Of a DNA stretch of 64,000 nt, positions 3,305-64,000 are shown in pieces. Within the stretch, counting starts at the first letter, position 1. Each line of letters opens with the position of its first letter. The position numbers were made by a program, and so were the translations under genes. The DNA is from Laccaria trichodermophora (lineage: Eukaryota; Basidiomycota; Agaricomycetes; Agaricales; Hydnangiaceae): contig JACTVC010000004.1 of assembly GCA_018417955.1 (NCBI GenBank), positions 1,364,001-1,428,000 on the forward strand. The letters are read 5' to 3'. The notes under the pieces are model-generated. The model had not been told where the DNA came from. It did no database searches and saw only the letters and a program-made list of their open reading frames with translations.

Positions 3305-3644
3305 AGTGGGGCTGGAGAGAAGGTAAGAGAAACATCGAGCGACCTAGCAATCGGGACAGAGTTGCCTAAGAGTCGATGATAACTTCATAATCTGTTTGGT
3401 AGCGGGTGAATTGACGATTCCATAGGTTCGAGAATGAGCTTACCGGGATGTTTTGGTCCTCCTAGGTTACTTGAGCGATGAAGCTTTGAAGATTGATATT
3501 GAAGCTTGAAGCACTGGCTTTACGCTCATCACGCCAAAACTCGAAAGTTCATTGGTTTCGCACCGATGATGGAATCGACTCGGAAGAAGAATTATTTAAG
3601 ACAGGCACAAATTCACATAAATAAATTCAAATACTCAACGATTA

Positions 3645-4137
3645 CAGCCGTTTGCATAATTCCGTGAACACCGAAATTTCTTTTTTTGGGCGTGACGTGA
3701 CTTACCTGCCCAAAAAAGTCACTTTCCCGCGTTCCGATAACTGTGCCAATGGCTCAAAATGAAGTGAAGAGTTACATTCATGACACCTTCGCTACCTGAC
3801 GATCTGGAGCCACATACTTATGGTAGCTTAGTGCATTGGTGAGGGGTTAAGTAAAGACCTGGCCCACTGTTTTATCAGGCTTGTTTGAAAAGTCATACAC
3901 AAAGGCTGAGAACATGGTAAAATATAACTAATCCTTTGACAAAAGAACCAGTATGCCTTCCATAATTGAGGAGGGATATTTTTAATACATTTCCGCCTGT
4001 CGAGACGCGAAAGAACGAGGCGCAGGACCGTCTGAACTTTTGAAAAGAGCAAGGGAAAGCTGTGCTTAGTCACGTGACTAGTCACGTCACGCCCGGAAAA
4101 AGAATTTTCGGTGTTCACGGAATTATGCAAACGGCTG
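3645..4137. mobile_element. 493-bp hAT-like MITE with about 60-bp TIRs
   Basis: The ends are CAGCCGTTTGCATAATTCCG at 3645 and its reverse complement ending at 4137. The inverted similarity continues for about 60 bases (including GTGAACACCGAAA and GGGCGTGACGTGACT). The direct repeat TACTCAAC lies just outside on the right (4138-4145) and five bases outside on the left (3632-3639). The related locus at about 22900-22960 carries the same flanks (AAATACTCAACG then CATCACCATTTCTG) without the element, so this is an insertion. No transposase is encoded. The 8-bp duplication and CAG ends suggest hAT, by inference. Confidence 0.85.
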
Positions 4138-4139
4138 TA

Positions 4140-4796
4140 CTCAACATCACCATTTCTGATGTTGCCACCCCTCATCTCAACGCCATGGACATCATCAAGG
4201 TTTACGGGCTCCCCATGAATGAGGCCTGGATGGTCCAAGAGTGCGTCAGACTGGGATTCTCCAACCCAGAAGACGATGTCTGTGGGGAAGAGCTCGACGT
4301 TACGCCTGTTTTTTACTCGATCATGGAACGTAGTGGCATCAAAGGGCTCCACATGAATTGCGTTTACGTCGGTGACGAAGTCGACATTCTCTTCTGGGAA
4401 ATTCCATACCAGATTTGGAAGCTACCTCGCACCCCGAAATTGGAGCGTCGTCTGGAAGCGTTCCTTCAGCTGGCAAACCTCCCTCCAATGAAACCCGCCA
4501 TGTATGCTTCCGTGGAAGGAGACTTGCCAAAGATTTTGCGAGGGGTGAAACAAGCGCCGCCCTGGATAGAAAAGTTGAGGGTAGAGAGCTCCCCATTGTA
4601 TTGGCCGCGCAAGCTCAACGTATGTTTTCCTTCTGCTCGTGCTCTTGCCGCTCCTGACTTATCATGTCAAACTAGGATCAGGTTTTTAAAAAGCCAGACA
4701 GACACCCCGCGCGTGCTACTACTGCACACATCCAAAAGTGGTTTTCGGGACCACCCATGTAGTGCCAGCGGACGCAAACTCAAAGCGTTTTCCTGA
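4140..4796 (+). CDS. DIIKVYG-family hypothetical protein, copy 1
   Basis: Unknown family, defined here by three copies in the window (this one, 5535-5893 and 22977-23453). The most likely start is the ATG at 4185 (MDIIKVYGLPMNEAWMVQEC), which is conserved in the 22977 copy. Conserved blocks include SGIKGLHMNCVYVGD, a Trp-rich stretch (LFWEIPYQIWKLPRTP), LERRLEAFLQLANLPPMKPA and a C-terminal QAPPWIEKLRVESSPLYWP. After PLYWPRK the copies diverge, and a donor-like GTA follows PN in the others, so the reading beyond about 4620 is probably intron or UTR. The upstream extension of the open frame to 4062 runs through the right TIR of the MITE and is not original coding sequence. The MITE therefore sits just upstream, in the promoter or leader. 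Confidence 0.5.
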   Translation, partial: LNITISDVATPHLNAMDIIKVYGLPMNEAWMVQECVRLGFSNPEDDVCGEELDVTPVFYSIMERSGIKGLHMNCVYVGDEVDILFWEIPYQIWKLPRTPKLERRLEAFLQLANLPPMKPAMYASVEGDLPKILRGVKQAPPWIEKLRVESSPLYWPRKLNVCFPSARALAAPDLSCQTRIRFLKSQTDTPRVLLLHTSKSGFRDHPCSASGRKLKAFS

Positions 4797-5534
4797 TGCA
4801 AAACCTCTGTCTCCTTATCTTGGGTAGAATGACTGGTCTGTCATTGGGCAAGGCAGAAACATGTCATTACTACGCCACCATCCCTCTCGTATGACATTTA
4901 TTTCCATGTTGGTTGTAAAATATGGCGATAATCAGAATCATCAGATGAAGTGGTTCGCGGCTTCATTGAAAGCCATCCCTCTTTGTACGATTCCTTCTGT
5001 GTTTGCCTCTCTCGTTGTGCCTTATCAATGATATCCTTCGTTTATCTTGCTGCAGATGTCCGAGACTTTCGATCTTTGCCATGTCCAAATGTCCTGTTCT
5101 CAAAGTTTCTTTCTTGTATCTTTCAATATGCCTACTTTGTCGTCCTTACCGCTTCACTCTTTCCAACCTCGCGCTGGTATTTGTCCTGCTCTCCAAGACT
5201 CTGTCATTGTCCGACTGCCAAGCCGCAAATGCGCTCCTGCCCGTCAACATCGTCTAGTCTGCTGAGGCGAGAACGAAGGAAGTGGTGGTCTAGAATAGGA
5301 TGAGATGGATGGGGTTGGGGGAGGGGTAATGGGTTAATGGAGAACAGCACCGACCAGACGGAAACAAATTTATGGACCAGAAGTAGAAACGAACGGACAT
5401 AAAGAACGGCCACAAATATTTGAAGTCTTCGAATCTTCGTGGGTTTGAGGTGCCGCGCAGTGCACAGGAATGGGGAGTGTCTGGTCCTATTATCCTGCTA
5501 CACATCATCGTCATCGGACCCCTCCTTGGCTACT
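4797..5534. other. Unique junction sequence between two DIIKVYG copies
   Basis: This stretch is not found in the related locus at 22.9 kb. It has several short open frames on both strands but no recognisable protein. It supplies the foreign 5' part of the rearranged copy that follows. Confidence 0.4.
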
Positions 5535-5893
5535 TTGATTCGATCAAGCGACGCAGTGGCATCCAAGAGCTCCACATGAACTGCGTTTGGGTCGGTGACG
5601 GACTCAGCATACTTTTCTGGCACCTTCCATTCGAGAGGTGGAAACCACCCCGCACCCCGACATTGGAGCGTCGTCTGGAAGAGTTCCTTCAGCTGGCAAA
5701 CCTCCCTTTAATGAAACCCGCCGTGTATGCTTCAATAGATGGAGACTTGCCGAAGGTTCTGCGAGGGTTGGAACAAGCGCCACCCTGGATAGAAAAGATG
5801 AGATTGGAGAGCTCTCCACTGTATCGGCCGCCCAATGTACGTTCCTTCTGCTCATGCAGCCATGCTTTTTGGGCCGACTCACAATGTCAATAG
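5420..5893 (+). pseudogene. DIIKVYG-family copy 2, 5' part replaced
   Basis: From about 5535 the frame matches the 22977 copy closely (SIKRRSGIQELHMNCVWVGD through MRLESSPLYRPPN). The first 40 or so residues of the family, including the conserved start DIIKVYG and MNEAWMVQEC, are missing. They are replaced by unrelated sequence (a frame beginning near 5420 that reads SSNLRGFEVPRSAQEWG and a hydrophobic ILLHIIVIGPLLG). It is best read as a 5'-truncated or chimeric copy from the unit that preceded unit 1. The downstream sequence to about 6560 also matches 23450-24090, which confirms that a whole segment was duplicated and not the gene alone. Confidence 0.6.
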
Positions 5894-6600
5894 TATCATG
5901 TTTTTACAAAGCCAGACAGACACCCCGCGCGTGCTACTACTACTACAGACGTCCAAAAGTGGTTTTCTGGACCCACAAAGTAGTGCCCTAGCTCGCTACT
6001 ATTGCAGACGCCCTAGCTCGCTACTACTGCAGACACCCATGTCGAGACTTCAGTGCATGCCATCCTCTCATCTATACCCGCTCCATAGCCAGTGTTCATG
6101 TGTAATCGACGCCCCTCTCCATGCAGAGGTCTCATGTAGGCTCAATCTATGTGTCGACGAACTCTTTGTTACTACGAAATACATACATCTTTTGCATCTT
6201 AACAACCACCAGCTGGATGCCGATCTCGTCTGCATACTCTCCAAACTAACACGGAAATTTTATAAACCAAAAACGAGTTGCATACCCTACACATGAGAGG
6301 TCCGAGTCTTCTAATGACATGTTTCCGCACTGCCTAACGGCCGCAACTGAGGACTCGGATGGCAGTGAGCGAGTTCGAAAAGCTCAACCGCATACTTTCC
6401 TGGGCCTAACCCATGCCTAATCATGCTTTTGATTATTATTGTCATCGTACATTCGAATGCTTCAAGTCAGTTTTTTTGGGAGATTCAGACAAGCGTAACA
6501 CTGTTGGCCATGGGCCACCAAATATATATCATCTCGTGAATGTTTATCGAGAATCAGATTTTTAAGAGATTGCGTGGGGGCTGATAACATTGGAGGTAAA
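5535..6600. repeat. Remnant of the preceding tandem unit (matches 23.1-24.1 kb)
   Basis: Sequence from about 5535 to 6560 is a diverged copy of about 23115-24090. It shares CACCCCGCGCGTGCTACTAC, GTGTTCATGTGTAATCGAC and TGGCCATGGGCCACCAAATA. Near 6575-6600 it also shares the GGGGGYTGATAAC motif that precedes the 25.56-kb insertion. The dioxygenase block expected in this position is absent. Confidence 0.75.
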
Positions 6601-6654
6601 AATTTGGTAAAAATCTTTCCAATCTGTGCGGGTCAGTGAAAAGCGGTGCCCTTC

Positions 6655-6766
6655 GGCCAAACATTGAACTTAAACCACCACCTTGCTCACTCCGACGCGA
6701 CATGATTGCCATCTTGACAGACTACTTTAATCGTCTATAGGGACACGGGCGCGTTTCTTGAAACTC
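6655..6766 (+). promoter_or_regulatory. Conserved upstream region of glycosylase copy A
   Basis: About 110 bases directly before the ATG are nearly the same in all three copies (here, about 27075-27189 and about 63845-63942). Shared words include CTTGCTCACTCC, GCGACATGATTG and TCGTCTATAGGGACAC. The dioxygenase-like gene reads away on its far side in units 1 and 2, so this may be a shared divergent promoter. It could also simply be recent duplication; conservation is not independent evidence of function. Confidence 0.4.
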
Positions 6767-8174
6767 ATGGCGCCAAATCACAAACCAAGAGACGAGGAGG
6801 AGGCACTTTCCGGAACCTCCGTAATCACGGAGCAACATGAAGCACCTGAAGTTTCCAAGGTCTCCGAACGTTTCCAAGCCTCATTGGCTCGCTTCGCCTT
6901 TGCCCACTGGCATTCTTCGAATCAAAAATCTAAGGCGCACGGCAAAGCCACAACGACCCAGAGGAGGCCACATAATCAGGATCATGCAAAAGGGCCGGGC
7001 AGCACAATAGCCTCAAGCTCTCGCGTAAAGGATCTGAGGACCAGAAAGCGGTAGATGTCGGCACTTGACGAGGGTCTCAATGAATCGGTCGGTCGTTTAG
7101 AACCTGGCTCTCCCTCCAAGAAACAGAAACGGGGGTATGCCGAGCCGTCTACGTACGCTCACCTGCGGGAACTTCGAAATCACTTGCGGAGTGGGTTAGA
7201 AGGTGAGTCAATCAAAGCATGAACATTCAGAACCAACTCCTCACGCACTTATTCAGTAGTTTTTTGTGGTATTAAGTGAGTTCGTCGGACTGCCACTCTT
7301 GACACGCTAATGATCGTTCTCAGCCCCGGTCAGACGTCCGCTGAGATAGGGCACCACTTTGGTGATCCAACAAACCACTTCTGGAGCTGCCTGTACGAAT
7401 CAGGCCTCACTACACGACTTCTCCGTCCTCAAGAAGACTTCATTCTCCCAGAACAGTTCTCGATCGGGATGGTACGCCTTTTCCCTTTTTATTAAGCGCG
7501 ACAATGGTACTCACATCTCCAATGATAGACGAATCTCGTTGATCGTCCAACTGCTGAGGTATCGGTACTTCCATGCAAGTTCCCAGTCACCGACGATCTC
7601 ATCATCCGTAGCAAAGCGAGCTATCCAAAGCCAAGCAAATTGCAGGGGTTCCTGCTCTCCTCGCCAAGATCGCCACACACCGCCCAAAAATTGTATGCTT
7701 TGTCGGGCTGGGAATCGCGGACATCGTCAAATCCAAAGTGGTGCCGGTAATTGTGAGTTTGTCTTCGTCCTAGCCCCCGTCGTTTGCTCCTCGACAGGCC
7801 GGAAAGGGCCCAAAGACGAAGGCGGTTATTGGTAGTCAGCCTTACAAGCTTCAGTATCAAGGTGAACAAGGCAAGGAAATCCATTTAGTTTGACCATCGA
7901 TGGATGGTAATTGGGCTCCTTGACAGCACGCCCCAAGGAAACCCTCTTCTATGCTGTTGCTGTGTCGAGTACGTCGGGTCACGTGGTTACGTACCAGGCG
8001 AGTTCTCGTTCAGGAGCTCTCCATTTCAGTTTTCTCATTCCAAAGTTGTAGAAAAAGGACAAGGTGAACCAGTTCAAGGCCTTGAAGTCGGTTTTGGAAT
8101 CTCTACGGAACAACAATATTGATACCTCCTCTCTTCACGCTCCCCAAGTGAACGATCTACAATGTGTAATCTAA
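6767..8174 (+). pseudogene. TDG: Thymine/uracil-DNA glycosylase (TDG/Mug family), copy A, nonsense codon
   Basis: Same exon plan as the intact copy at 27190. It keeps the catalytic-domain words GIN (microexon at about 7259), PGQTSAEIGHHFG, NHFWSCLYESG, TNLVDRPTAE, AGVPALLAKIATHRPKI, FVGLGIADIVKS and ETLFYAV. The family removes T or U mispaired with G in nuclear DNA; the Asn of GINP is the expected catalytic residue. The lesion is TAG at 7052-7054, where copy B has TCG, after about 95 residues of the basic N-terminal tail. ATG follows immediately (7055), so reinitiation could in principle still make a protein with the whole catalytic domain. Another difference is a 6-nt in-frame tandem duplication in the FYAV segment near 7952. 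The start is the ATG at 6767; the apparent upstream MKL is a TTG codon. Confidence 0.8.
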
Positions 8175-8478
8175 GTTCATGTCCCACCATGCATATGTAT
8201 GTAGTTTCATCAATGTAATCTTCCAACTGTTGTTCTTCGTACTCTATCACACAACCCTCCACGCTGCGTTGACAAGTGGCCTCGAAAGGAAGTTTCCCAT
8301 GATGGCAGGCTAATGTTGACTATTTTCGTGAAGCAACCTCTATACAATGAATACCGAGAACGGGTGGCGCATTATGAAACGATGACCAGCTCCGTTCTCA
8401 ACGAAAACAACAAGAAATTATTGAGCAACTACAAAAAAAGATACAAACACACAAATCATAATGCATAAGCCCCGAAGT
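8175..8478. other. Convergent 3' intergenic region of glycosylase and BRR2 copies
   Basis: About 300 bases between two genes that converge. It is AT-rich with A-runs near 8430 and is conserved in unit 2 (28586-28876). It probably holds both 3' ends; no other feature was seen. Confidence 0.5.
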
Positions 8479-11110
8479 CTACTCGTCCTCATCGCTATCC
8501 ATGTCCTCATCACTGTCGCTATCCTCTCCTTCAAGCACCTCAATGGGTTCAAGACCAATGTCGTGGTCAGCACCAACGTAAGAATCACAAATGACGTAGA
8601 GCTTCAGTGAGTGAGTGCCCTTCGGCAACGTAAACTCAAGCTTGACGGCAAGGCTCTTCGTCACCGTGACTCGCTTGATGACGAGGAGCTGGCGGGAGGC
8701 AGGATCTCCGACAACGAGCCACCAATTCGCCAACTTCTTGAGGGGATAGAACGGTGCAACAACGTTTTGGTCACCATCATCTTCCTCGTCTGCGTCACGT
8801 GCCAGCGATACTTGGAGGAGGATTGGCGCGCCTGCGGTGTATTCTCCTTTGACGAGCTCGTGAGAGATGTCGAGGGTGGGGTAGGAGTTGACAAAGGTTG
8901 CGACATCTCGCCTGAAATGACGTGAGCTTCGATCGTAGGGAAAAGTTTGTGATTCTTACATTTGGGCGGGCGTCATCTGGAGCAACTCGTTTCTACGGTC
9001 GTCCTCGAGCTCCATAATGTCATAGACGGAGTCGACACCAGCGTCCTTACAACGCTTGATTACCTGAAGCGACGATGACTTGTGAGCGAATGACTCTCTT
9101 ACAGCGTGAGTTTACTTACCTCAGTCTCAAAGTGAGGGATTTGTTTCAGAGGCGAATCCGTCTCCCACATGGCTTGTACACACATCTGAGATAGATCCAT
9201 CGCACCCAGGGCGCTCAGCCAAGCACTAGACGACATCACATCGACGCTGGCCGACAAAAGATTGAGTACTTTCTCCAGGACGGGAACCTGGTCACCGATG
9301 ACGATACAACCTCGAGAAGGCCTTTCAACTTCGTACGCTCCTTGAGAGACAATGTGTACACCTCGACCGTCACGTCTAACAAGCGTATAAGCCACCGGGT
9401 TACTTCCAAGTGATAGGCACTTACATGAGATATTATAGTAGGCAGCGATCATTCCAAGATTGAGCGCCGACACGTCCATTTCGTCCTCTGAAGAAAGGTT
9501 CAGACAGATTAGCAGAAAAAAAGGGAGAAATATACCAATTGCGATACACTTCGAATTTACGAGATCACTCAAAGTGTTCTCAACAAGTTCTGAAAGGTGG
9601 TCGGACAGATGCTGATGGCTGACATTGTGCAGATTGTAATAATTCGGGTTTTGAGTCATTCGGCGGTAGAAGTAAGTCCAAGTAAGAATATCCTGAGGGA
9701 CAGAACGTAAACGCAATGAAGAAACATGATCGGGAGTCGCTTACCATAGCATCTTGCTTGTTCTCGATGGTTTTAACTGAGATCTCCGCGAGGAAGTAGT
9801 CATGAAGCAGATGGGTCGGGAGATGTGACTCGATTGGAAGCCCTTCGGCAAGGAACTTCTTGTAGAAGTCCTTCCGTGTTTGCTGCACATGAGAACACAT
9901 CGACTGCGCTCATCTTCCATTGGCCGACAAGCGCGGCCCACCATTTGGAGAACGTCCATGACTGGGTAGTCGATGTAACGATGCTCCTTGCCCTCATAGA
10001 ACTGGACACCCATGATGATCACCATGTAACTTGCCACCGGCAAACTCCAAGCCGTGTCTTTCGATGCAACAGGCAATTGGATGGCTCCTGACTCGAACAG
10101 GCGCTGAACAATGCGTTTGTTCTGCGTATTGAGAGCCTCGTGGTAGTACCCGATACCGTGTTTGAGTGTTTCAACGAGGCCCTTGTCGCTGATGTGGTCC
10201 AGGTGCGGTTGTAAGTCGTCAAGCTCGACGTTGAGGAATCGATCACGTTTATCGTCCGCTAGGCAGTGAGTCAGAAGGTCGTCAACCGTAAGGCGGCACT
10301 GTCGCCTGGAGGGAACAAAAACGATGACGGGTTTTGAGGGAGAGTACTCCAGAACGGCGAGGTAGGCAGGCTTTGACATGGCGATCATTAGGGAGGGGAA
10401 ATGGGGGATGGTGAAGGACTGAAGATGTATGTCCATATCAAGGGGACGGGCACTAGTAACAGCATTAGTATGCAGCCTTCGAGGAGAAATGGAAGGGGAA
10501 TACCTTGGTGAAAAGTTGAAGGTCGCGTGAGAAGGTGTACCCATCCACTCGCCCAGATCTCGTGCGTTCGCGAGACAGACTCCACAAGCGACTATGCGTG
10601 TCTTGATTTCTGTCTGCGCAGATACATAACGCGTGCGGGAAATGACGACCTCATAGGTGGGTCCCACTTCACCGCCGACCAACTGGACCTCATCAGCAAT
10701 AAGAAGACCGATGTTTTGGATGTTTTTGCGTTGTCGCCACCGTCGTGAAAGGACGTCCCACTGTTAATAAGTGAGAAAAAAAGCGAAAGTAGAATGGAAA
10801 GATGTGACGAACCTGCGTTGGTGTGCAGACAATGACGTCTCCTTTCTCCGAAAGCCTCAGATCAGCACCAACGATCTCCTTCCCGCCTTGTAGCTTTTTG
10901 AACTTGGCTCGACATTCCACGACTCGTTGATCAACCATTCCTTGATATGGCTCGATACAAACCGCTCGGGGTTGCTCTCTCTTACTCCAGAGACGAAGGA
11001 GAGCAAATTCTGCGCAGATTGTCTTGCCGTTACCGGTAGGCGCACCAATGATAACATTTTCGTCAAGTTGGTATGGGTGAGTAAACGACCCCCTGGTGAC
11101 GGTCCTTTGA
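8479..11110 (-). pseudogene. BRR2: BRR2 (U5 snRNP helicase) C-terminal fragment, copy A
   Basis: The minus strand reads, with several short introns, the second helicase cassette and Sec63-like C-terminus of BRR2, the Ski2-like helicase that unwinds U4/U6 in the spliceosome. Visible words in order: GAPTGNGKT (motif I, about 11030-11057), [118 protein letters not shown] and an acidic tail DSDEDMDSDEDE. The first cassette is absent, since homology starts just upstream of motif I. About 178 bases present in copy B (29692-29869) are deleted here near 9295, shifting the frame after KLKGLLEVVSSS. It is a 5'-truncated, frameshifted pseudogene, convergent with the glycosylase. Confidence 0.85.
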
Positions 11111-12300
11111 AGAAAGGAAGCTTCACCCGATCTAGGGCAAACGGCGCAACACGTTCACCGTCGCACGACCAGCCTCTCCTCTACACCATGAAGACCTACG
11201 GTCCATCGATCGTTGTCGTAAACGCGTGATGAGCATTTTGCAAAAAGTTGATGAAAGAGACCGCGTACCGTAACCTTCAGCAACAAGACAGTGACATGCG
11301 TAGCCTAACTCCCTCTCCATTTCTCGTCGATCTCTAATTTCACCGGTGGGAGGGAATTAATTGTGGCGATGGGGTTTCCAAATCATCCGCGGGCGAGGAT
11401 TACGGCGGAGAAGCGTTTGTGAAATGCAAGGGAGCCGACATAGCCTGACTGATGGAGAGATACGAGGGTGTAGCTGGATAAATAGAGATAGATACGTACT
11501 GCTGCTATAGACCCATCCCGTATCGTATATCCCTGGTGCGGTGGACTTTCCAGAGCCTATACCAGCTTAGTAGCTTGTGCGTGAGCGTGATCTCTCACTT
11601 CCTCTGTTAGGTTGACAATCAAGGAGCAATTGCCAATGACAGATTGAGCTCACCTCAGCGAGTGTCGACCACAAATTGAGCTCTAAGTCTCACATGTAAA
11701 GAGAAATTTAAGTGTGAATCCGAGGCGAGCAAAGGGTAAGTAATATGCGAGCTGGAGGTCGAGGTCAAAAACGTTCACGTTGATCAAATTCGTGTTGACC
11801 AACGTTTGTTTTCCTCCTTGTCTCTTTTCACCACCAGCAATGAAGTGCTCAAGCAGCTGCACTATTGACGAGTTTCCTCAGCTCATCAAGCGAGCTAGGT
11901 CATGAAGTAAGTATCTTATTTTTATAGTTCAATGATCACGTCTAACTTATGGTGATCACCATCTTAGCACGCAGTGGATTCGGAGTCGACGACTGCATCA
12001 GGCCTCGAAGATTGTAGGCACCTTGATTTGGAGACGTACAGTTGATACGCTGAAAACGTTGCGAATCGAAAGAAGCGGCCCAGCAATCTTTTTCAGGTGT
12101 TTTATCGCCGTCATTGTCTCTCACAACGTAAACTGAGTCTCGGTACTCACCTTCCATGCGCCAGTAAACACAACGGCTATCGGATATCCTTTGCGATGTT
12201 GTACCCCTGTTCTCAACCAAGGCTGGCGCTTACCCCCTCTCTCCTTCCTTTCCTCACACACGATCTCTTTCCACGTTCTTCCTGGGGTACGGAGGTATGC
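11111..12300. other. Conserved unit segment, no gene recognised
   Basis: The stretch matches 31566-32700. It includes a conserved short frame (ATG at about 11840, MKCSSSCTIDEFPQLIKRAR) followed by GTAAGT, which could be a small exon, but no protein family is recognised. The rest contains no convincing open frame. Confidence 0.4.
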
Positions 12301-16130: not shown

Positions 16131-16160
16131 AGGCATTATGTGAAAACATACTGATACTAT

Positions 16161-17285: not shown

Positions 17286-17347
17286 CTGTCAATCAGAATA
17301 TTATTAGACTCACAATGCTTTCTCCCTCATTATGGCAAATAACTTAC

Positions 17348-49800: not shown

Positions 49801-49866
49801 CAGCCAATCTGGCCTGGTAAGAGGGCCACTGGAGTCCATATGGATTAGGTGGGGGAGGGTAAAGAC

Positions 49867-51166: not shown

Positions 51167-51439
51167 AGTGGTGTATTATGTAGTATTGGATGTATTATAT
51201 AGCATTGGAGTCAATGTTTTTTTTTGAAACTGCACTCAAACAGTAAATCCCTTAAGACAGTCTAAAATGAGTGTAGTCCATCTGAAGTCAGGTGGAGTCC
51301 AGACAGAGTCTATGTGGACTCCAGATGGACTCCAGCTCCATGATCCTGAAATACATGTATTGTAGGCGGAGTCCATCTGGAGTCCAGATACCCATCTGGA
51401 GTCCATCTGGAGTCCAACCGGAATGTGTGGGGGAGTGTA

Positions 51440-52470: not shown

Positions 52471-52477
52471 GCATCAG

Positions 52478-52733
52478 CAAGATCACAATTTACTTATCTA
52501 CTTTCTCCCACTTTTTGACTTGCCACAGGTCAAAAAGCTGGAAAGTTGGAAATACAGCTATCAAAATAAAACCCATGCCAACCTGAATGCATTCAAAATT
52601 AGTTGCTTTTCAGGGTACTGAGCCTGGCTTTTTGCATTTGTGGCTTTTCTGCTTTTTTCAACTTTTTATTGGCTTTTGCCAGCTTTTTCTGGCTTCTACA
52701 AGTAGAATAAGTAAAATGCAAAAGTACCAATGA
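52478..52733 (+). repeat. Dispersed 265-bp repeat, copy 2, with empty site in unit 1
   Basis: Matches 26160-26420. In unit 1 the flanks ACTTGTTAATGCCAGGGGAT and AAGGTAAATTTTTAGTATTT (about 16073-16120) are adjacent without it, so it inserted after the unit duplicated, or was lost from unit 1. Confidence 0.8.
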
Positions 52734-52780
52734 GGTAAGTTTTTACAATGCAGGCATGATGTGAAAACATCTGATACTAT

Positions 52781-54031: not shown

Positions 54032-54093
54032 CTGTCAATCACAAAATTATTAGACTTGCAATGTTTTCTCCTTCATTATGGCAAATAACTTAC

Positions 54094-55596
54094 CAATAAA
54101 ACAGATATTACACCACCCAGGGATTTCAGTCCTGTTTGTAGCTTGCCCAGTATACTGAGACACTCTATCCAGTGCAAAAGATGCTTGTGCAGAAAAACAC
54201 AAAGAGTGTCAACAAGTACAGGGTCAAATTTCTTGACCTCTGCTAAATGATCAGCCCAATAGATGCATGAGTATTTGAGTGCTTCAGAAATTTTGCCAGC
54301 ATTCTCTAGAGAGTTGGCCCTGTCTCTGCATGACAATGTCAATTCTTTGGGGATTTCACATATGTTGTGCTTCAGTGACTTGTTCATCAGCATTAAACAT
54401 TTGAGAGCAATCAGTGTATGACCCTTGGAAGCAACCAGTGAAGGAAATGATGGGCAACGCTCAGGAGAACACCAGACTGGATTGGTGATAAAGTCAGGAA
54501 ATGAGGCATGGAATGGAGCAACCACAGCTCCAGGTTGATCAGGAATGTGAATAACAGAGGTGAGCCATGACAAATATGACTGCACATTGCTTTCCGGTAA
54601 TAGAGATGAAATGGCTTCCATCGACAATGGATTTCGAAGGAATATGGTGATCAACAAGACATTTCTCATACCATCAACTTCATGCAACTCCTTGTCTTCA
54701 CAGACCTTTTCCATGACATGTACATAGAGAGAATTGATCTCGGTTTCGAACTTGTTGATTGATTTCTGGCCATGGGCCAACATTGCGGCGATACGGGGCT
54801 TATAGTTTTCACCACCATTGGTGATGTACCGAACAGCAGTTGCTGCATAAATGAAGAGCCTGCCAGAACTTGTGACAAGACTGGACAGTTCGTCATCCTT
54901 GATGTGGGCCAATGATCTCCTGAGATATATCCGGATATCGTTCTGGACTACATCCTTCTCGATGTCATGGAGATAGAAGTACTCTTGAATGCTATCACCA
55001 GTAGACCTGAAGGCAGTGCGAATCCGATTCTCATCTCGACTGGCTAGGAATATCTTGAGCGGAATTTTCGACGCCCATTCAAGAACAAGTTTAATGAACA
55101 ACACGACAACTTCAAGGTTGGCACATTCATCAGCGGCATCAATAACGACAACTTTATCCACCACGACCGGGCCGATGGTCGTTCGAACAGGATTATAAAC
55201 CAGCCGCTTGAACTGCTCCTTCATGTTAGAATATGTTGGTTCCGCCAGAGTAGGGTCATCCTCGATGGCCTTGATGACCTCAACTTTGATAGCGGGTGAA
55301 GCCCTCGCCAGCGAGTGTGCAATAACAGGAATAATGAGGCGTGCGTTCCTAGTTTTCTCCGATGCTCGAGAAGCAAAGAAACTGCCGCCAAGAATGTTTT
55401 TCGCCTCGAGATGCTCACAGAACGTGTGCGCGATGGTCGATTTTCCGATTCCCGCCATACCTACCATCCAGTACACCCTGCTGCTATTGACATCCGAGGC
55501 CCAAGTGTCCAATTGTTCGAGGACCTTTACGCGGGTCCCTTGCATGCAGCCGGTGGGGTCGCCGTAAGACGACTGTCGAGTTTTATATGATGTCAT
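54094..55596 (-). CDS. NACHT ATPase exon of NACHT-WD40 gene, copy B
   Basis: Open from the visible Met (MTSYKTRQSSYGDPTGCMQG) to the intron donor at 54093. It carries Walker A GMAGIGKST, Walker B VVVIDAADEC (copy A has AIDEC), ASRDENRIRTAF and a helical arm (HDIEKDVVQNDIRIYLRRS, AATAVRYITNGGENYKP, FHASFPDFITNPVW). With the WD40 exon, about 900 residues of an NLR-type receptor are readable. The frame stays open upstream (SIEKLNHE), so an N-terminal effector or linker exon beyond about 55620 is likely but was not found; the gene may be N-terminally truncated. The GMAGIGKST motif in a fungal NACHT protein suggests a role in non-self recognition or programmed cell death, by family knowledge only. 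Confidence 0.88.
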
Positions 55597-57930
55597 TTCG
55601 TGATTGAGCTTTTCGATGGAATCTGTGGGTCCACGAAGCTTAGCGCTATGTTCTGTTGAGCTAGTTCATCTCACCTTGACCCCGATGTTCATGAATCTCC
55701 ATCTTAAATTCCAATCAATATTTAAAACTATTCATGCTGGGTTACCGGACACACCTTTTGAGCATCATAGAAATTGGAATCCCTTATAACAAAGTCGTGC
55801 GCTCCCTGCATTACATTCTGGGATTCCCGAAGACAAAGGAAATGAGCGAATGAATTTGTTTGCACATTTTGAACACACCAGAGAGGTACCCTCTCCCGTA
55901 ACTTCAGGCGCCCTAGTAGCCGTCGAGCTAGATTTCGTTGGCAGGACGCCATCTGCGGGCGTGGGGGTCATGAACTCCCACCTCAAACCGCCAGGGCGTT
56001 CATCATGTGGGTGAATTGCGTCCATGAGGCGATCAGGTAATTTCTTGGACTCTCCTTGCAAATGATTTTCGCGGGGGCGATTAAGATCAGACATCGTGGT
56101 CCAGAAGAGAGCGTCGATGCTGTGCAGCGTCAATTTGCACAATGGGTAGCGGGCCGGTCCTGGGGTCAGCTGACATTTAACGCGCAGTGGCGTGGTTCGG
56201 CGTCAAGTCAGCGAGGAAGCACCTGGAAGCGCAAGAAAAAACGGTGGTCAATGGAGAAGTGCGAGACAGGGAAAACAACGCCTTTCAGCGGACTGAAGGG
56301 GATGAAGAGACAACATTTCATTCTAGATATTTACAAGGGACAAGCTAAAACAAACCTTAAAAGACGAGCACACATAGATGCCTCGTTCACCACCATTAAG
56401 TAGGATCTAGCACCCGTTATTCTGGCTCTATCTCCTGTCATCCATCGTCCCTCACATTCCTTCTAGCCCCTCTCGCTACCATCCTCCTCACTAATCCGCA
56501 GGAGTGGGTGTGTGTGTTTCAAACGTTGTGAGAGGACAAGAACCCACCGAGACAGACGACGAATGATGGGGGTCGCAGGGATGATCTTGGTTTCCTTCAG
56601 CACGGGCCCATTCCGTCGGCGATCGTAAGTTGTGACCAGGCTTGGCAGCACTGTATTTCACTACCGCTGGATAGCTGTCATTAGAGAGAAGCCGTTGGTC
56701 ACGGAGCTGCGGAGTGCTGAGATCTAGGTGGGGAATCCCCAGGGAAAGCATCGGTACGAATCACGGAACGCCAGACAGTTGCAGGGGTCGGCACGGGCAA
56801 GCACATCATCCTTCGCGCTGACATTCGAAGCAGGCGTTGGCTCATCACCTACGGGACGGTGTGCTCGTTTGTGTAAACTCGACGCTCCAGAGTTGCCACG
56901 TCATCGACCTTTCAGAACGATAGTGTGATCAGCCCGTCGTCGAAAGCCGGAGGTGTTGGAGCCGTACCCAAAGCAAGAGGACGTACGTGATGTCTCCCAG
57001 CGCCCTACGTATAGGACGTGGTCCAAGGCGATTTGATGCACCGTAGAGAGTCGAGTGTGTCGGACGTTGAACGTTTCCCGGTTAATCGTAAGCCTGACCA
57101 AAGGAAACCAGGGCCACAACATAGCCAAGAGCAGAAGAGCTGATACCGGGGTTTCCATGAAACAGCAAACTGCCCTCTAGAAATGAAGACACTTGGCATG
57201 ACTTGATCTGTCAAAGGATTGGCGTTCGTACCTGCGATAGAACACTGGCGTCGACCCTTCTCCTCCACAACTACCCAACTCGTGTACAACCCATTTCTGC
57301 CACAAGTCATCCTCAGCACATCGACGAATGGACCGGAACTTATCGATTATCCCTGGTATGCGTGAATCGAGTCCGAGGGAATGGTACGCTACTAGTGAAT
57401 GCAATGTCAGAAAACTAGTACTTAGAAAGGGTAGAGCGTGGACGTACGGTACGTGACGCAATCTTCCGGACTCGTCCTCCAGTCGTCAACCTATGATCGA
57501 AACGCTGACGGGCAGTGTATATGCTTGTTTGAGTTTGCGTCGCAGAGGTGGAAATTATGGGCGGTGACCGGTATGCATCAGTAAGAGACATGGCGGAACT
57601 GGATGACGGGCGAGACAAGTTGTCAGAGAGAAGAGGACTGGATGAATCTGAGAGACACGTACTTTATTACTCATTGGCTCCACCTCTCATGTATCCGAGG
57701 CCAACTTCATTCAATGCAATGAACACACACGTGGTTCAACGATCCGAGAGAGAGCGCGGAACTGGCTGAGCGCGGTTTTCTTCCTCGGCCAAAGGAGCTG
57801 GTGGGCAGCGTCGGACGGTGGGCACACAGTGGATGGTCCTACCCTCCGAGTCCTAGTACTCACTAGCGTTGCTCACGGTAAGTAAAGGAAAACGGCCAGG
57901 TGCCGGATGCAGTGAATATGGGAGGGAATC
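55597..57930. repeat. Unit block 3, copy 2
   Basis: Upstream leader of the NACHT gene to about 55890 (the empty site of the 1.7-kb insertion), then the block shared with 20863-22880. Short frames recur, but no gene family is recognised. Minus-strand frames near 57005-57461 have weak protein-like similarity to 60839-61226. Confidence 0.6.
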
Positions 57931-58480
57931 ACACACAATTATAAACAAGACGACGTCATTGATCCAAGTCTTCTCGTCGTCCACTTTGAGAAATATATAT
58001 GCCCGGCCAAATCATAACTCGGGCACTTTTATACTAACTCCAAGCCAAGTTGATTGGGCGATTCTTCCAACTTGCGTTTCAAATGATTTTCGCCAGGGCC
58101 ACCAGGATCAGTCATGGTGGTTCAGAAGAGAGGGTGTGCGTCGTGCGGCGGCCCTTCAGGTCAGCTGACATTCATCGGTCCGATGAAAAAGGTGGACGCA
58201 CGGTAGCTGGGCGTCAAGTCAGCGAGGAGGTGCCAAAGAAAACGGCGGTCAACGGAGAAATCAAACAAGCGGACTCAGGATGACGTGCTATTTCATTTCA
58301 AAAGCAGCGGATTCTCCATACCATCAGAAACCAAAGACTAACGTGTAATTACAAAAGACGAGTTGGCTCTTTCACCTATCTCGCTAGACGCCATTCTGGC
58401 TGTCATACATCCTTGGCTTGCTTCACATCCCAACTCTCCTTGTTGCCCTCCCCACTAACCTCGTTATTGCAGATAAGTAC

Positions 58481-59219
58481 CCGTTTTGCCATAACGTTCA
58501 GTACTTCGACAGGTACTTCGGCCACATATTCTCCGCCGTTGATCATAAGTAATAAGGTGTTTAGCTGGGTTCAAGATCCGAAACGGTCTTGGAAGCGCAT
58601 GAAGTGTCAGCTTGGCTGTAGATTGTTGTCGTTAGGCGACCTGTTGGTGGAGCTGCAGTCCGAAGCACAGAGGAAGGCCTCAAAGGAGAACCAGATGATA
58701 GGATCGTCACTGAGCACGGGCCAGACGACCGACACAGGAGTTTGTACATGCAGGCCAACCGCCCTTTGCATCGCTCCTGGCAGTTGAGGTGCCTTAGACG
58801 GAGATCGTCATTCGAGCCATGGATGCCCAAGCTTCAACCGCGCACCTTTTAAACGGCACAAAAAATCAACCGCAGGACGACTAGCCTATCCTCCACCATC
58901 CATGAGCACCCATGTTGCATCGTTCATCGGCCCAAACACATTAATAGAGGAGGTCTCCAGCAATTCCAGAGGCGCGTGGGTCGAAATTAGGGGAGTACAG
59001 CATGCCAGGCGAACTGTAGGCTCCACAGTCAGACGTCATGCGCTTCGAATGTGGCAAACATAGGGGGTACATACCGTAGACCAACCACAAAAACTCCCCC
59101 TCAGTTCGTTGTCGATCTCATAAGGAGTGATTGACGGCAGCGCATAGACTGCTCGTGTTTAGGTCACCAATCCGTTTGACGGCAAAATCAGGGCGGCCAA
59201 CGGTTAATTTCCGCGAGAT
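58481..59219. other. Insert sequence left of eL14 pseudogene
   Basis: Not matched elsewhere in the window. Short frames only; nothing recognised. Confidence 0.35.
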
Positions 59220-59668
59220 GTGAGGAAGCACGCCGACATGACGCTAAAGCAAGCGAAATTGGCTCTTCTGCACCGCGATACGCTTCTGTGCCCAACTTGA
59301 CGTGTCCCATTTGTCATCAATGGCCTCTTTCTCAACCTATTTGCGGACTTTTTCGTACCAGCTCCTCGGGGCAGAACTGAGAGTTTGAGGGGAGTAATGG
59401 TGAGGTGTTTGTTGGGATAGGATTAGCGGGGAACACCCGTTGTTGGGCCGTTGATGATGACCTGCGTGAAGGTTAGTTGGTGAGCTTCTGGGAACACATT
59501 AAAAAGGCATACGTGCTTGTGGTCGATGATCTCCGCGATGACGGCGATCTTTCTGGAGAAGGGGCCAGATCTGAGGAGGACGACTACTCAACAGAATCAG
59601 TAATTGTTTCTAGAGAATCTATTTCCACAATGACGTACCTCGCCCAACCTCGACGAAGCACTTGAAGT
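59220..59668 (-). pseudogene. RPL14: 60S ribosomal protein eL14 (RPL14) pseudogene with introns
   Basis: The minus strand reads FKCFVEVGR, then an intron, VLLRSGPFSRKIAVIAEIID, then an intron with GTATGC...CAG, VIINGPTTGVPR, stop, SYPNKHLTITPLKLSVLPRG, a frameshift, VRK, stop, VEKEAIDDKWDTSSWAQKR. This is the SH3-like core and C-terminus of eL14, a large-subunit ribosomal protein. The stops are TAA (plus 59423-59425) and TAG (59337-59339); one base is lost between them. Introns are retained, so it arose from DNA duplication or capture and not from a retrotransposed mRNA. The first exon and start are not seen. Confidence 0.85.
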
Positions 59669-60640
59669 TTGATTCCTAAGGCAAAAGCAGCGTCAGCCCA
59701 ACGAGCTTCTGACCACATTTTAACACAATGGTCTCCAACAAGGCCAACCTCATCCAACCCATCCAGCCCAATCCACCCCTTCCACCACAATTCTTCCGTT
59801 CTTTCGTGGGATAGAAACCTTTCAATGGTTCCTTGTACACTTTAGCGGAGAAACGACACTCACTGTGCTCATATTTTACTAGAGGGGGGTCGCTGGGTCT
59901 TGAATGCGTGGCTGTGGCTGTGCAAAAACCGACTGCTTCTCCCCCATGAAGACATTGTTTATATTGTCCAAATATTGTCGTGCTAAAATGCGTGAGTTAA
60001 GGTATTCCATGCAAGGTGAACTGTAAGATGCATGATCAGGAGCTCCGAAGAAAGTCGATGATAGAGGGAACATACCTTGAACCTCAGCGACAAGACGGTC
60101 GCTTATGAAAGCTAAAACATGGCCACCAGAACCGCGTCTAACATTGCGTTCGATCCGCATCACTTGACTGTAGTTGACTCGTAGAAAGGTGTTGCACGAG
60201 TATGGTGGGCTTCTGACCCGACTCAAGGCAAGAGCAACGATAACCTTTCGAAACACATAAAAACCGACATCGTTTGACTAACCAGACGACAGAAGATTAT
60301 CAGCAAACAAGGTTGAATGAACCTAAGGGACACGTACTGCTTAAATGTCATGTGTTCCCGATGCCATAAACTATCACGCCCCGAAATCAAAGCTCAGAAA
60401 TCAGCGTCCTTTCAACCGCTGTGTTAGCTTTCTCCTTCATGAAAGGTTGCACACACACACCAAGTTTCGAGCGCAGGAGCCAAGTGAAAGATTCAAGTCC
60501 CTGGAAACGAAGAGCGAAGATTTGAGCTTGTAGAGGAGGCGCGCGAATGGTAGCTAGATTATAGGCGTAGAGTTGGCAGAATCGATGGTAGATGAGGACG
60601 CCGTTGCTTCGAATTTGAATAGCTCCCGTGTCGGCGTCAC
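59669..60640. other. Insert sequence right of eL14 pseudogene
   Basis: A 125-residue minus-strand frame (60256-59879, including VNYSQVMRIERNVRRG and GGHVLAFISDRLVAEV) looks protein-like but is not recognised. It could be an exon of a captured gene. The rest holds nothing I can support. Confidence 0.3.
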
Positions 60641-61450
60641 GGTTGGTTCATCACCTACGGGACGGTGCGCTCGTTTGTGTAAACTCGACGCTTCAGAGTT
60701 GCCACGTCATTGACCCTGCAAAACGATAGTGTGATTAGCTCATCGTCGAAAGTCAGAGGTGTTGGAGCCGTACCCAAAGCAAGAGAACGTATGCGACGTC
60801 TCCCAGCGCTATACGTATAGGACGTGGTCCAAAGAGATTTAATGCACCGTAGAGAGTTGAGTGCGTCGGAAGTTGAACGTGTCTTGGTAGATCTTGAGCC
60901 TGACGAAAAGAAACTGTGGCCACAACGTAGCTAAGAACGGCAGATGGGTATTGAACTGCCCTTTATTAATGAAGACGCTTAGCGTGAATTGATCGGTCAA
61001 AAAATCAACGTTCATACCTGCGATGAACCACTGGTTTTGGTTCTGCTCCTCCACAACTACCCCCTCCTCTGCACCTCATCAAAATCTCATTTCTGCTGCG
61101 AGTCGTCCGATTCCGAGGAAATGGTACGGTACTGGTGAATGCATCGTCAAAGCTGAAACTTGGAGACGGATAGAGCGTGGACGTACCGTACAAATCCGTG
61201 ACGCAATATTCTGGACTCGTCCTCAAATCCTCACATTGACGGGCAGGGCATATGCTTCTTGAGAAAGCGTCATGGACGGTGACCGGTATGCGCTAGTAGG
61301 AGACTTGAGTGGCACTGGATGACTCGTCAGCGAGAAGAGGGCTGGATGAATCTGAGAGACACGTACTCGATTACCCTGAAGGGACACACACAAGAGGGCG
61401 ACCGTTGAGCACAGTTTTCATCCTCAACCAAAGGTGCTGGTGGGCAACTG

Positions 61451-61915
61451 GTGGGTAGAGCCTAAAGCAACCTTGTGTTTGTCGTCAGAGGGTGGTGGTC
61501 AGGGGCAACGTCAAAGAGACACTCACCTTAACGAGAGGGTTTGTGTCCGAGATGATGGTTGAGGGCACCGTTGACGTCAAATTGTTGTTGGAGATCATTT
61601 TGGAACTACACGGTGTACGGGCCCACTCAACAACGTTTGAAAAGTAAGCGAGTCATATCAGCGGTATCTAAAGCCAATCTCAGCTCCTGTGGCCGTTGGG
61701 TAACAGTTAAATTGAGTGTAGAATGCGCGCCTGGAACGAGGTGTGTGGATATTTAAGGAATATAGATGTAACGTCCAGTGAGTTAGATATTAGATTTGAA
61801 GTGTGGTCCAATGTGCATGTTTTAATTAGCCCTGTCCTCGCCCAGGGTTTCCTGGTTGTCGCTCCGAGCGCGCGATCCTTCCAGTTTACAGGCAAAGGTC
61901 TTAGGCCTTTATCAT
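61451..61915. other. Spacer before dioxygenase copy B
   Basis: Words such as GGTGGTGGTCAGGGGCAACGTC resemble 14290-14310 of unit 1. No gene recognised. Confidence 0.3.
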
Positions 61916-61959
61916 GGCCTCCTCCCCTCTTCCACAGCCTCCCCCAGCGCCGCCGGCTC

Positions 61960-63156
61960 CCTCTCCCTAGTAGCCCTCTTCGCAGGTCCTACAATATAAA
62001 GTGCAACAATGATCATAATGCAAATCCTTGAACTCCTTCAAAGCCTCCATCAACCCGGGGTGTTCACCCAGAGAAAGGATCAGATTGTGAAGAGGACGCG
62101 GGTTGTTGGAGAGGTGAGTTAGAAAGGCGCGGCATGTACAGCTGCATGCGTTGTAGAAAGGTAGACTGTGTTGGATCCGAATACCGATCCACACCAAGGA
62201 ACGCGTCCATGGCGAGCGGGCTCTGTCCTGCGCTTGGACCAGATAATTCCGTAGGCTCCCGGAGCGTCTCGTCCATCTCCATCTCTTTAAACACCTACCT
62301 TCCCCTGGAGTCTTCGCCGCGGAACCAAGGCCTCACGTCCCGATAAAACACATCTGGGTCACACCCCTCTTTTCAACACGCTTGACAATATCTTAGCGTC
62401 CCCCGCCAGGTCTGTTAGGTATGTGGTGATGCGGCGCGCGGCGATGTCGTCCCCGACGAACGCCTCATCCATCGCCATCTACATGAGCTCCAGCGCATCG
62501 ACGCCTCCTAGCCGATACGAGGTACAATCCCGCTTCGTCCTGCGTAGACGTGAATAGCGTCTGACATCTCAAGGGCGAAGTGTCCGTGGGTATCGTCTCA
62601 TCCCCAGTTTGTAGAGGACGTCGTCGGAAATAGGTGAGCACGAGCGGGAGCCGTAGTTGCGCGGAGACTTAGAGGAGGGGGGAGGGTTCAGGATGCAGGG
62701 ATAAGGATGGGATTTGCGTGGGTAGAAATGCATTATCCACCCGAGGACGTGGTGTGCTCTGCGTAGGAGGACTTCTGACTTTTTTTTACTAGTTCTGTAA
62801 TCGGTAAAACAGGGAGCTTTACAAAAATCAGTCTTTTGCAAAAAGAAAAAAGAAGAACAAGAAATCACTTCGTACCTCCCTCGCCACACCTCCGAATTTA
62901 TCTTTTCCCCCTTATCCAAAGAGTCAAGTCTATCCCCAAGCTGCAGTTTCCTCTCAACGGCATCATCCACCCACGTCTCCCAATTTACTGGTAAACGACG
63001 TGGTGGTGCTTGCGTGGGCATGAACCCCGTGCGCGTGTCGACATCAAAGTCGTGTGCTGCGAGGGTAGTGGTGTCGACGACGCCTAGGGGTGGTCCGGTG
63101 AGGACGTCTGGACGGGGGAGGGAGAGGAAGCGGGTTGAGCCGATGTTAATGGACAT
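61960..63156 (-). pseudogene. Indoleamine 2,3-dioxygenase-like pseudogene, copy B
   Basis: Better preserved than copy A. A long first exon reads VDTTTLAAHDFDVDTRTGFM, RRLPVNWETWVDDAVERKLQ, LGDRLDSLDKGEKIN and WRGRYEV to a donor near 62870; then LLRRAHHVLGWIMHFY in a shifted frame, an RCQTLFTSTQDE block, GDDIAARRITTYLTDLAG, EPTELSGPSAGQSPLA and THLSNNPRPLHNLILSLGEH. In the family the proximal haem His lies in a YMPxxHRxF motif. Here the sequence passes from LYMPR directly into a shifted FLTHLSNNPR, so about ten bases with the His are gone. A nonfunctional copy is inferred. Confidence 0.82.
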
Positions 63157-63165
63157 GGTGTACAT

Positions 63166-63834
63166 GTCCTAGTCGTGTTTCATGGATATTAGGATTGAAT
63201 ATTGAGGCTCGAGTTGGAGAGCGAGCTTGCGAGCTCGAAACAACTCAAGCAGGGGCTTTGTAAGCGCGATGCGGTGATGCCCGCTTCACCACGTTCCGTG
63301 GTGTTGACAGCCTTCTGAGGTCTGTGCGCTCCGAGGATAAAGTCCTCGTGAAGCAATAAAAAATTCCTGCCTTCTTCGCTTTCATTCCCATTTCCCCCGC
63401 GAACTTTAGCCTTCGCAGAATTTTTTCGACCCTCCCACCTCCCATTCTCTCTCTTTTTCATCACTAGTGTGCCTGTGGTTGGTATGGTCTTGTTGTCTTC
63501 TCAGACCCTTCACATGGGGCTGGGAAACCAGGATCCACACCGGCACGCTCAAAGCTTTCGGAATTCTCGACTCAATTCATTTTTTCAAATATACTTGTTT
63601 TCTTATCACACCTGAGATGTCATTTGCATCCCTTGAACAAGTATCAGATTTGAATTGTGCCAATTTCTTGAGATCAGCGCGACGCTTTTTGGCACGAGAA
63701 TTTTCCAAAGCTTTCCCCCAACCCACGGAAATTCGGATTTTCAATTGACTCAAGATTTTAAATCGAATTTTCGTGTTATATCACATCTTAGCATCAGCGC
63801 GCTACATACAAAGCAGTAAAAATGACGATAAATA
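63166..63834. other. Spacer between dioxygenase copy B and unit 3
   Basis: Differs from the corresponding interval of unit 1 (which holds the 1,498-bp element). A plus frame at 63467-63748 (SLEQVSDLNCANFLRSARRF) and a minus frame at 63464-63189 are open but unrecognised. Confidence 0.35.
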
Positions 63835-63942
63835 AGATTTAAATACCCAAACCACGACCTTGCTCACTCCGACGCGACATGATTGACACCTTGACGGACT
63901 CGTTCAATCGTCTATAGGGACACGGGCGCGTTTCTTGAGTTC

Positions 63943-64000
63943 ATGGCGCCAAAACACGAATCAAGAGACGAGGAGGAGGCACCTTCCGAAACCTCTGGAA
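63943..64000 (+). CDS. TDG: Thymine/uracil-DNA glycosylase, copy C, start only
   Basis: The ATG at 63943 opens MAPKHESRDEEEAPSETSG, the same N-terminus as copies A and B, with the same upstream region. The gene leaves the window after 19 codons. In this copy the nine bases before the ATG differ, which supports this ATG as the true start in all copies. Confidence 0.75.
   Translation, partial: MAPKHESRDEEEAPSETSG

Follow-up and report, generated by a model that had tools for sequence, protein, structure and literature searches.

Known multigene arrays and fungal receptors

The soybean defence locus rhg1 is built of a 31-kb tandem unit that contains several unrelated genes; to our knowledge, it holds no NOD-like receptor (NLR). 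Plant NLR clusters, which can include passenger genes, evolve by birth, death and conversion in tandem clusters. Here, we analyze a stretch of 64,000 nucleotides (the window) from Laccaria trichodermophora (assembly GCA_018417955.1, contig JACTVC010000004.1, called C34 below, positions 1364001-1428000), which is part of a tandem array of multigene units with NACHT-WD40 receptor genes, TDG/Mug-type glycosylase genes and copies of the spliceosome gene BRR2. Among described fungal systems, the HNWD/NWD genes of Podospora anserina (het-d, het-e and het-r) are the closest. According to the available parts of PMC1805685 and PMC12222747, in which the HNWD genes are described, these genes also combine a NACHT domain with near-identical WD40 repeats in variable number, vary at paired positions with a 2-16-2 spacing, and undergo exchange between paralogues. 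Four WD40 codons (7, 9, 25 and 27) are under selection in Podospora, according to the accessible part of PMC1805685. In the part of PMC4986451 that is available, highly conserved repeats (HIC, at least 85% identical over at least 100 amino acids (aa)) make up between 0 and 58% of repeat domains, with the maximum in L. bicolor.

The Laccaria locus differs from the Podospora system in several respects. The Podospora HNWD genes bear an N-terminal HET domain, to which no Pfam match was found here, and here the receptor genes stand in a tandem multigene array in which conversion spans the NACHT exon. The array shares the multigene tandem unit with rhg1, although kingdom and genes differ, and it departs from plant NLR clusters in that its passengers include the sole full-length BRR2 gene found. 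No published description of the array was recognized in the titles and abstract openings among the matches listed. The arrangement is new; its parts and processes are of known kinds. We consider it highly probable that the locus represents a local NLR array, in other words a duplicated neighborhood in which the receptors have been kept by selection, with BRR2 and the glycosylase as passengers.

A tandem array of twelve units

The genome comprises 59,027,671 bases (59.0 Mb) in 77 contigs. Sequence was read for C34:1330001-1530000, 1567501-1577500 and 1652501-1662500 and for four further 10-kb stretches; the 200-kb stretch is free of N and includes the window letter for letter. An earlier note, made from the letters of the window, had described the same unit order twice, together with the start of a third unit. 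A BLAST comparison of the window with itself bears this out, with collinear off-diagonals at 77-96% identity. Positions 6652-13184 match 27075-33979 (90-96%, offset 20.4-20.8 kb), 15115-22849 match 51521-57930 (77-91%, offset 35.0-36.7 kb), and 24304-25482 match 61929-63156 (85%). The beginning of the third unit is seen in the match of 27091-27247 with 63845-64000 (88%), and alignment and gene models agree with the glycosylase ATG codons proposed at 6767, 27190 and 63943. In the self-comparison, the remnants of an earlier unit at 3.6-6.6 kb are copies of a piece at 22.96-24.09 kb. The tandem repeat is thus confirmed, and it is larger than first described. In the self-BLAST, unit 1 (U1) extends from 6.65 to 26.4 kb and U2 from 27.07 to 63.8 kb, with the third glycosylase starting at 63.85 kb. 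Both units contain glycosylase, BRR2, a 2.55-kb element, a NACHT-WD40 gene, a segment termed block 3, and pieces similar to indoleamine dioxygenase (IDO).

The extra length of U2 is a KDZ (Kyakuja-Dileera-Zisupton) transposon. The 17.4-kb insert at 34.07-51.43 kb carries a KDZ transposase and CxC domains (PF18758, 9.1e-50; PF18803, 1.9e-36; PF18721, 1.7e-9). The excess of the second glycosylase interval had been equated with this insert; the insert is present, but the excess of 16.3 kb is near rather than equal to its length. Within the insert, positions 41017-46613 are dense in tandem and inverted repeats with periods of 59, 123, 308 and 371 bp.

In the whole genome, 12 units in the same orientation span 282 kb of C34, and the window covers the left end of this run. 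A genome DNA search, in which all 13 candidates were scored, identified 12 full glycosylase copies, all on the plus strand, at C34:1370652-1654183. Beyond the array, to which we count a glycosylase relic of an older unit left of the window (C34:1355390-1356274), this search found no glycosylase DNA. The distance between successive unit starts ranges from 14.4 to 55.0 kb, with a median of 21.4 kb. C-terminal BRR2 DNA is present in the same 12 units, a lower bound as 40 of 70 candidates were scored, and none of these 40 lies beyond the array. NACHT DNA occurs at 15 places in the genome, ten of them in the array on the minus strand between 1.381 and 1.650 Mb, so that 10 of the 12 units have a NACHT-WD40 gene. 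The dioxygenase of the earlier note survives in part: IDO-like DNA is present in three units, and on C15 at 71%, but the Pfam match is weak (E 0.0024) and under the cut-off. The order of landmarks recurs across the 200 kb, with losses (U3 is without the IDO-like piece, U5 without NACHT) and insertions, and the copies diverge by 4% to 23%, depending on the segment.

Receptor genes

The reading of the WD40 gene as an immune-type receptor holds. The two genes in the window match NPHP3_N over its cut-off (1.6e-23 and 1.1e-22), in agreement with a NACHT-type NTPase, and NACHT (PF05729) under its cut-off (1e-4 and 2e-4); five and six stretches match WD40 (PF00400) in their C-terminal parts. No Pfam family, and hence no HET domain, was found in 55765-56202 on the minus strand, a stretch that includes the N-terminal exon of U2 (E up to 1), and no HET domain in all frames of 55897-61928. 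A role of the receptors in immunity or self/non-self recognition may be inferred from the family to which they belong. NACHT and WD40 genes are regulated in L. bicolor mycorrhiza, not tied to the array locus, according to the available part of PMC8708209, and a symbiotic role is therefore an alternative to self/non-self recognition. Matches to NPHP3_N or NACHT number at least 150 in the genome (150 of 260 candidates scored), many of them on C1, C5, C16, C34, C56 and C76, and the array is therefore one cluster in a rich repertoire.

Eight of the nine NACHT exons that were read are open (502-533 aa); the open frame of U11, outside these nine, is listed at 532 aa. By a simple Nei-Gojobori count (U10 partial), the ratio of non-synonymous to synonymous substitutions (dN/dS) is 0.20-0.46, and so below 0.5, in all 36 pairs, with dS values of 0.05-0.26 except for U4 and U8 (0.008). 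The counts indicate that the NACHT exons are under purifying selection and that the receptor gene is the best kept part of the unit. The NACHT exons of U4 and U8, which are 130 kb apart, are free of mismatches over fifteen consecutive 100-base windows (1500 bp), followed by windows with 1, 9, 3, 5, 17, 20 and 39 mismatches. The same two units differ by 4-9% in other parts (glycosylase 8.9%, BRR2 4.3%). The identical stretch is therefore read as a tract of gene conversion.

The WD40 repeats number 5 in U1, 6 in U2, 12 in U3, 12 in U4, 13 in U6, 12 in U7, 9 in U8 and 3 in U9, and at least 9 in U10, where the gene is cut; the counting pattern allows five substitutions, and more diverged repeats escape it. 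Inner repeats have mean identities of 0.82-0.88, with three of eight genes at 0.85 or above (U9 has too few repeats). Among 72 repeats, the most variable of the 42 positions are, in order, 23, 4, 5, 7, 36, 40 and 25. Entropies at positions 5, 7, 23 and 25 are 1.95, 1.66, 3.33 and 1.41 bits (ranks 3, 4, 1 and 7). The pairs 5/7 and 23/25 flank the conserved positions 6 and 24, and their 2-16-2 spacing is that of the Podospora codons 7, 9, 25 and 27; the register was set without an alignment, from this spacing and the conserved residues alongside. In simple counts, the proportion of non-synonymous differences (pN) is far above that of synonymous ones (pS) at positions 5, 23 and 25, and overall pN is 0.128 and pS 0.100; nine of the 81 repeats, namely the first in every gene, are absent from the per-site counts.

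The BRR2 copies

BRR2 (SNRNP200) is a core spliceosome gene and normally essential. The U12 copy is modeled with 15 exons and 2192 aa, of which residues 12-2183 align without break to residues 11-2136 of human BRR2. Only U12 has the full length and both helicase cassettes; the copies in the window represent the part with the second cassette. The 5' 2.3 kb of the U12 gene have one full match in the genome, and seven others of at most 182 bases, so that U12 appears to hold the sole complete copy. A captured piece of foreign BRR2 had also been considered, and is ruled out by the full gene in U12. In the genome, Sec63-domain matches outside the array lie on C12 and C13 only (three of 39). A protein search with the C-terminal half returned no Laccaria-labeled protein among the best 120 of 948 matches, under length limits that exclude full-length BRR2.

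The other copies compared are without the 5' part. The longest, in U8, extends to 1659407 in U12 coordinates, and the copies in U1, U2 and U5 end at a common base, each beside the 2.55-kb element; 81 bases that span the junction are identical in all three. Over the shared C-terminal part, the truncated copies (U1-U5, U7 and U8) differ from U12 by 4.2-4.8%, and third codon positions dominate. Among the truncated copies themselves, the density of differences at position 3 is higher than that at positions 1 and 2 by a factor of 2.4 to 4.7; the three non-independent pairs of U1, U2 and U5 give 39:39:167 at positions 1:2:3. For variants among eight copies, the ratio of position 3 to positions 1 and 2 together is 52:9 when they are shared and 86:85 when they are singletons (Fisher p 9e-7). 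Pairs of informative sites are incompatible with a single tree in 1169 of 2346 cases, with 43% incompatibility below 200 columns and 52% above 1000 (2 of 500 permutations as low).

Third-position bias and incompatibility are not expected for dead copies of common descent, and overwriting by functional BRR2 is thus the simplest reading. Functional alleles probably kept overwriting patches of the truncated copies after truncation. Alternatively, the truncated genes could be functional C-terminal fragments, selected as such, with a third-position excess that arose without gene conversion. The density of differences at position 3 would fit this explanation, as would the excess that is also seen among singletons. 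However, all seven truncated copies compared have exon indels, of up to 172 bases, and three of seven have in-frame stops; moreover, the shared variants are far more biased than the singletons, and the site incompatibility amounts to mosaicism. Selected fragments are thus less likely than overwriting by functional BRR2, and we regard them as improbable.

The glycosylase copies

The glycosylase gene has eight exons. Among the nine copies read (U1-U8 and U12; U9-U11 are outside this set), those of U2, U3 and U4 encode an intact protein of 336-338 aa with a GINPG motif. An intact copy aligns to human TDG over residues 133-321 at 2.1e-28, with GINPG aligned, which places it in the TDG/Mug family. 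A first frame reading had given VLSPGQ and thus loss of the catalytic Asn; this was refuted, as the splice sites give GINPG. The other six copies are broken or altered, by stops in U1, U7 and U12, by frameshifts in U6 and U8, and by a changed catalytic Asn and an altered end in U5. A genome search with PF03167 matched only three array copies and none of the intact ones, which their introns probably hid, and the absence of other TDG genes therefore rests on DNA similarity.

Origin of the array

On the preferred reading, a neighborhood with a TDG-type glycosylase, BRR2 and a NACHT-WD40 gene underwent tandem duplication, for which unequal crossing-over is the most likely mechanism, and this gave 12 glycosylase-led units in one orientation, ten with a receptor. 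Diversity of the receptors arises by two routes. One is the loss, gain and change of the near-identical 42-aa WD40 repeats, as the pattern of repeats suggests; the other is gene conversion of the NACHT exon between units, as seen for U4 and U8. BRR2 and the glycosylase are passengers: most of the copies read have decayed, with the U12 BRR2 and some glycosylases intact, and exchange with functional BRR2 probably kept rewriting the truncated copies, to judge by the codon-position patterns. Since glycosylase and C-terminal BRR2 DNA were not found elsewhere and the full BRR2 stands in U12, both are best read as native neighbors caught in a local duplication.

Several observations weigh against this account. 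Crossing-over itself was not observed. U5 and U12 are without a same-strand NACHT match, and five NACHT relatives outside the array, one of them on C7, point to some dispersal. The comparisons cover nine of 12 glycosylases, nine of ten NACHT exons and eight of 12 BRR2 copies. Several receptors are dead, because the WD40 regions of U1, U4 and U7 (3 of 9) have in-frame stops and the U10 NACHT exon is broken. At WD40 position 7, pS is the higher of the two values in the simple count (0.456, against a pN of 0.321), and position 25 is less variable than positions 4, 36 and 40. Finally, the BRR2 singletons exceed the 1:2 ratio expected without constraint, and recent truncation or selection on the fragments may contribute to this excess.

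It is also conceivable that selection acts on none of the genes in the unit and that the array owes its growth to drift. Broken copies, which make up six of nine glycosylases, seven of seven truncated BRR2 genes and three of nine WD40 regions, would be in line with such neutral duplication. The uniformly low NACHT dN/dS values speak against it, as does the WD40 variation that clusters near the positions selected in Podospora. Moreover, most differences among the intact glycosylases of U2-U4 fall on position 3 (17-21, 8-11 and 33-35 differing sites at codon positions 1, 2 and 3 in the pairs). Purely neutral growth is therefore unlikely in our view, and the local NLR array with selected receptors remains the preferred explanation.

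The dispersed element and the right arm

What the earlier note called an unknown gene does recur in the units; it is, however, a dispersed 2.55-kb element (31521-34072 in U2) with ends that recur among copies, and it has no match to a Pfam family, nor has 22.85-27.07 kb on the plus strand. Counts of the element are lower bounds, as 40 of 83 candidates were scored. Beyond the array copies, which lie on the minus strand, it is found at about 21 loci on C34 between 1.67 and 2.67 Mb (C34:1669000-2671500), and single copies lie at C34:1.269 Mb and on C25. At 20 of the roughly 21 outer loci on C34, which were grouped by hand, the best match is on the plus strand (two-sided probability about 2e-5, also by hand), and three NACHT copies there (1.673, 1.773 and 2.015 Mb) are likewise on the plus strand. 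In 14 outer loci, the element stands beside a middle segment and a spacer, with no NACHT match between them, and eight of these compact loci share an identical 14-bp gap between middle segment and spacer. The counts of these two segments are again lower bounds (40 scored of 54 candidates for the spacer and of 110 for the middle segment). The outer loci up to 2.67 Mb apparently form an older arm, inverted for the most part, that shares its history with the array; this right arm is known from the positions of matches, and only 1662.5-1672.5 kb of it were read as sequence. A further unit-like set of spacer, NACHT and middle segment lies at C34:2937275-2965371 in minus orientation, and a NACHT relative with 82% identity at C7:200316-201793. 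In the middle segment of U2, a stretch near 59.3 kb on the minus strand matches eL14 (PF01929) weakly, under the cut-off (E 0.0028), and is perhaps another duplicated neighbor gene.

The dispersed element raises the question whether a mobile element, for example of Helitron or Starship type, captured host genes and carries the unit as cargo. Several unrelated host-gene pieces do travel jointly, and the element with its recurring ends abuts the BRR2 truncation. However, all 12 full glycosylases lie within one 282-kb stretch on one strand, the same holds for the C-terminal BRR2 copies found, the KDZ gene is part of the insert of a single unit, and the shared orientation of the outer element loci is unlike that of random insertions. 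The earlier suggestion that the genes move as one block is not supported: glycosylase and C-terminal BRR2 DNA are confined to the array as far as found, full-length BRR2 is in its last unit, and the scanned unit parts contain no transposase (19.2-20.8 kb were scanned in one open reading frame (ORF) only). As no full copies were found elsewhere and no transposase in the unit parts scanned, the mobile block is rejected, and we deem it very unlikely.

Laccaria bicolor

The best relative of the NACHT exon is the WD-40 repeat protein P0001 of L. bicolor S238N-H82 (90%). The glycosylase has five relatives in L. bicolor (P0121, P0122 and P0124-P0126, 73-92%); the other fungi named mostly have one, some two or three, both counts being for the best 120 of 258 matches. 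None of these L. bicolor proteins is identical to its counterpart in the array. The contig of P0122 and P0126 has the same size (225551) as that of P0001. P0001 is closest to U3 (96.9%, compared to 86.7-93.3% for the other eight units read), and part of the array at least therefore seems to predate the split. L. bicolor S238N-H82, a different strain or species known here from proteins alone, thus shows protein-level signs of the same array.

Basidiomycetes are often dikaryotic, and the array might accordingly be an artefact of uncollapsed haplotypes or a duplicated contig end, but we reject misassembly as close to negligible on the divergence of the twelve copies (4-23% depending on the segment; their insertions, breakpoints and WD40 counts differ as well) and on the second Laccaria genome at the protein level (five glycosylases, two on a contig that matches the receptor's in size, and P0001 closest to U3), the sequence read being free of gaps.

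Features of the window and its flank

Features of the window are collected in the table. Several gene models are imprecise at their 5' ends, and those of non-receptor segments are low-scoring and serve as hints only. Positions 149-2363 contain long open frames without significant Pfam match; by eye, a model that overlaps them (from C34:1358.9 kb onward) resembles a kinase. In the left flank (C34:1330-1355 kb), models resemble by eye SEC31, a short-chain dehydrogenase, a CoA-transferase and an RNA-dependent RNA polymerase (SGGDLDGDEF motif), and a NACHT-like gene lies near 1344 kb. Neither Rfam matches nor tRNA genes were found.

Table. Positions of array features in the window (window coordinates)
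Feature	Position	Strand	Basis
Two copies of the 22.96-24.09 kb piece; older-unit remnant, glycosylase relic left of window	3600-6651	+	self-comparison, genome search
TDG/Mug-type glycosylase U1, broken (in-frame stop in exon 1)	6767-8171	+	gene model
5'-truncated BRR2 U1 (second helicase cassette, C-terminal Sec63), exon indels	8479-11064	-	Pfam, alignment
2.55-kb element copy U1, starts beside BRR2 truncation	11066-13221	-	similarity
Spacer from element to WD40 gene, no Pfam match; 13185-13903 recurs in right-arm compact units	13185-16116	-	
NACHT-WD40 U1: NACHT exon open (502 aa), 5 WD40 repeats, stop in fifth	16161-18927	-	Pfam, repeat count
Block 3 U1, opens with NACHT-WD40 N-terminal exon region	20863-22849	.	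similarity to L. bicolor P0001
Piece with copies at 3.6-6.6 kb; contains ORF 22914-23453 (without Pfam family)	22850-24100	+	
IDO-like fragment U1, weak	24304-25482	-	
TDG/Mug-type glycosylase U2, intact 336-aa 8-exon model, GINPG	27190-28585	+	
5'-truncated BRR2 U2, exon deletions, one in-frame stop	28877-31519	-	
2.55-kb element U2, recurring ends	31521-34072	-	
Inserted KDZ transposon region	34073-51430	+	Pfam
CxC2 in KDZ insert	38320-38637		
KDZ transposase in KDZ insert	38955-39743		
CxC6 in KDZ insert	50158-50328		
NACHT-WD40 U2: NACHT exon open (529 aa), 6 WD40 repeats, stop-free	52784-56094	-	
N-terminal exon region of U2 NACHT-WD40 gene	55849-56094	-	similarity to P0001
Block 3 and middle segment U2, weak eL14 ribosomal protein match	55897-61928	.	
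IDO-like fragment U2	61929-63156	-	self-comparison
U3 glycosylase start; full model beyond window intact, 336 aa	63943-64000	+	

Implications

NLRs with near-identical repeats are particularly abundant in L. bicolor (PMC4986451), yet most of what is understood about their evolution comes from Podospora. The Laccaria array brings together, at one locus, growth in tandem, shuffling of repeats, a conversion tract in NACHT and passenger decay. It also calls for caution with annotations, as array copies account for several TDG entries of L. bicolor and for BRR2-like pieces in this genome.

A more far-reaching possibility, to which we assign a small but not trivial chance, is that the locus acts as a self-renewing receptor nursery, in which the U12 BRR2 anchors the end of the arm and ectopic conversion is continuous among BRR2, its truncated satellites and the receptors. 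If this were true, unequal exchange could not trim the BRR2 end of the 12-unit arm without cell death, and the synonymous make-up of a spliceosome gene would be shaped by the dynamics of an immune array. The only TDG-type glycosylases found would then survive solely as array members, perhaps aiding repair-driven shuffling of the WD40 repeats. The array allows a test of whether an essential gene can serve as donor and anchor of an immune-gene array.

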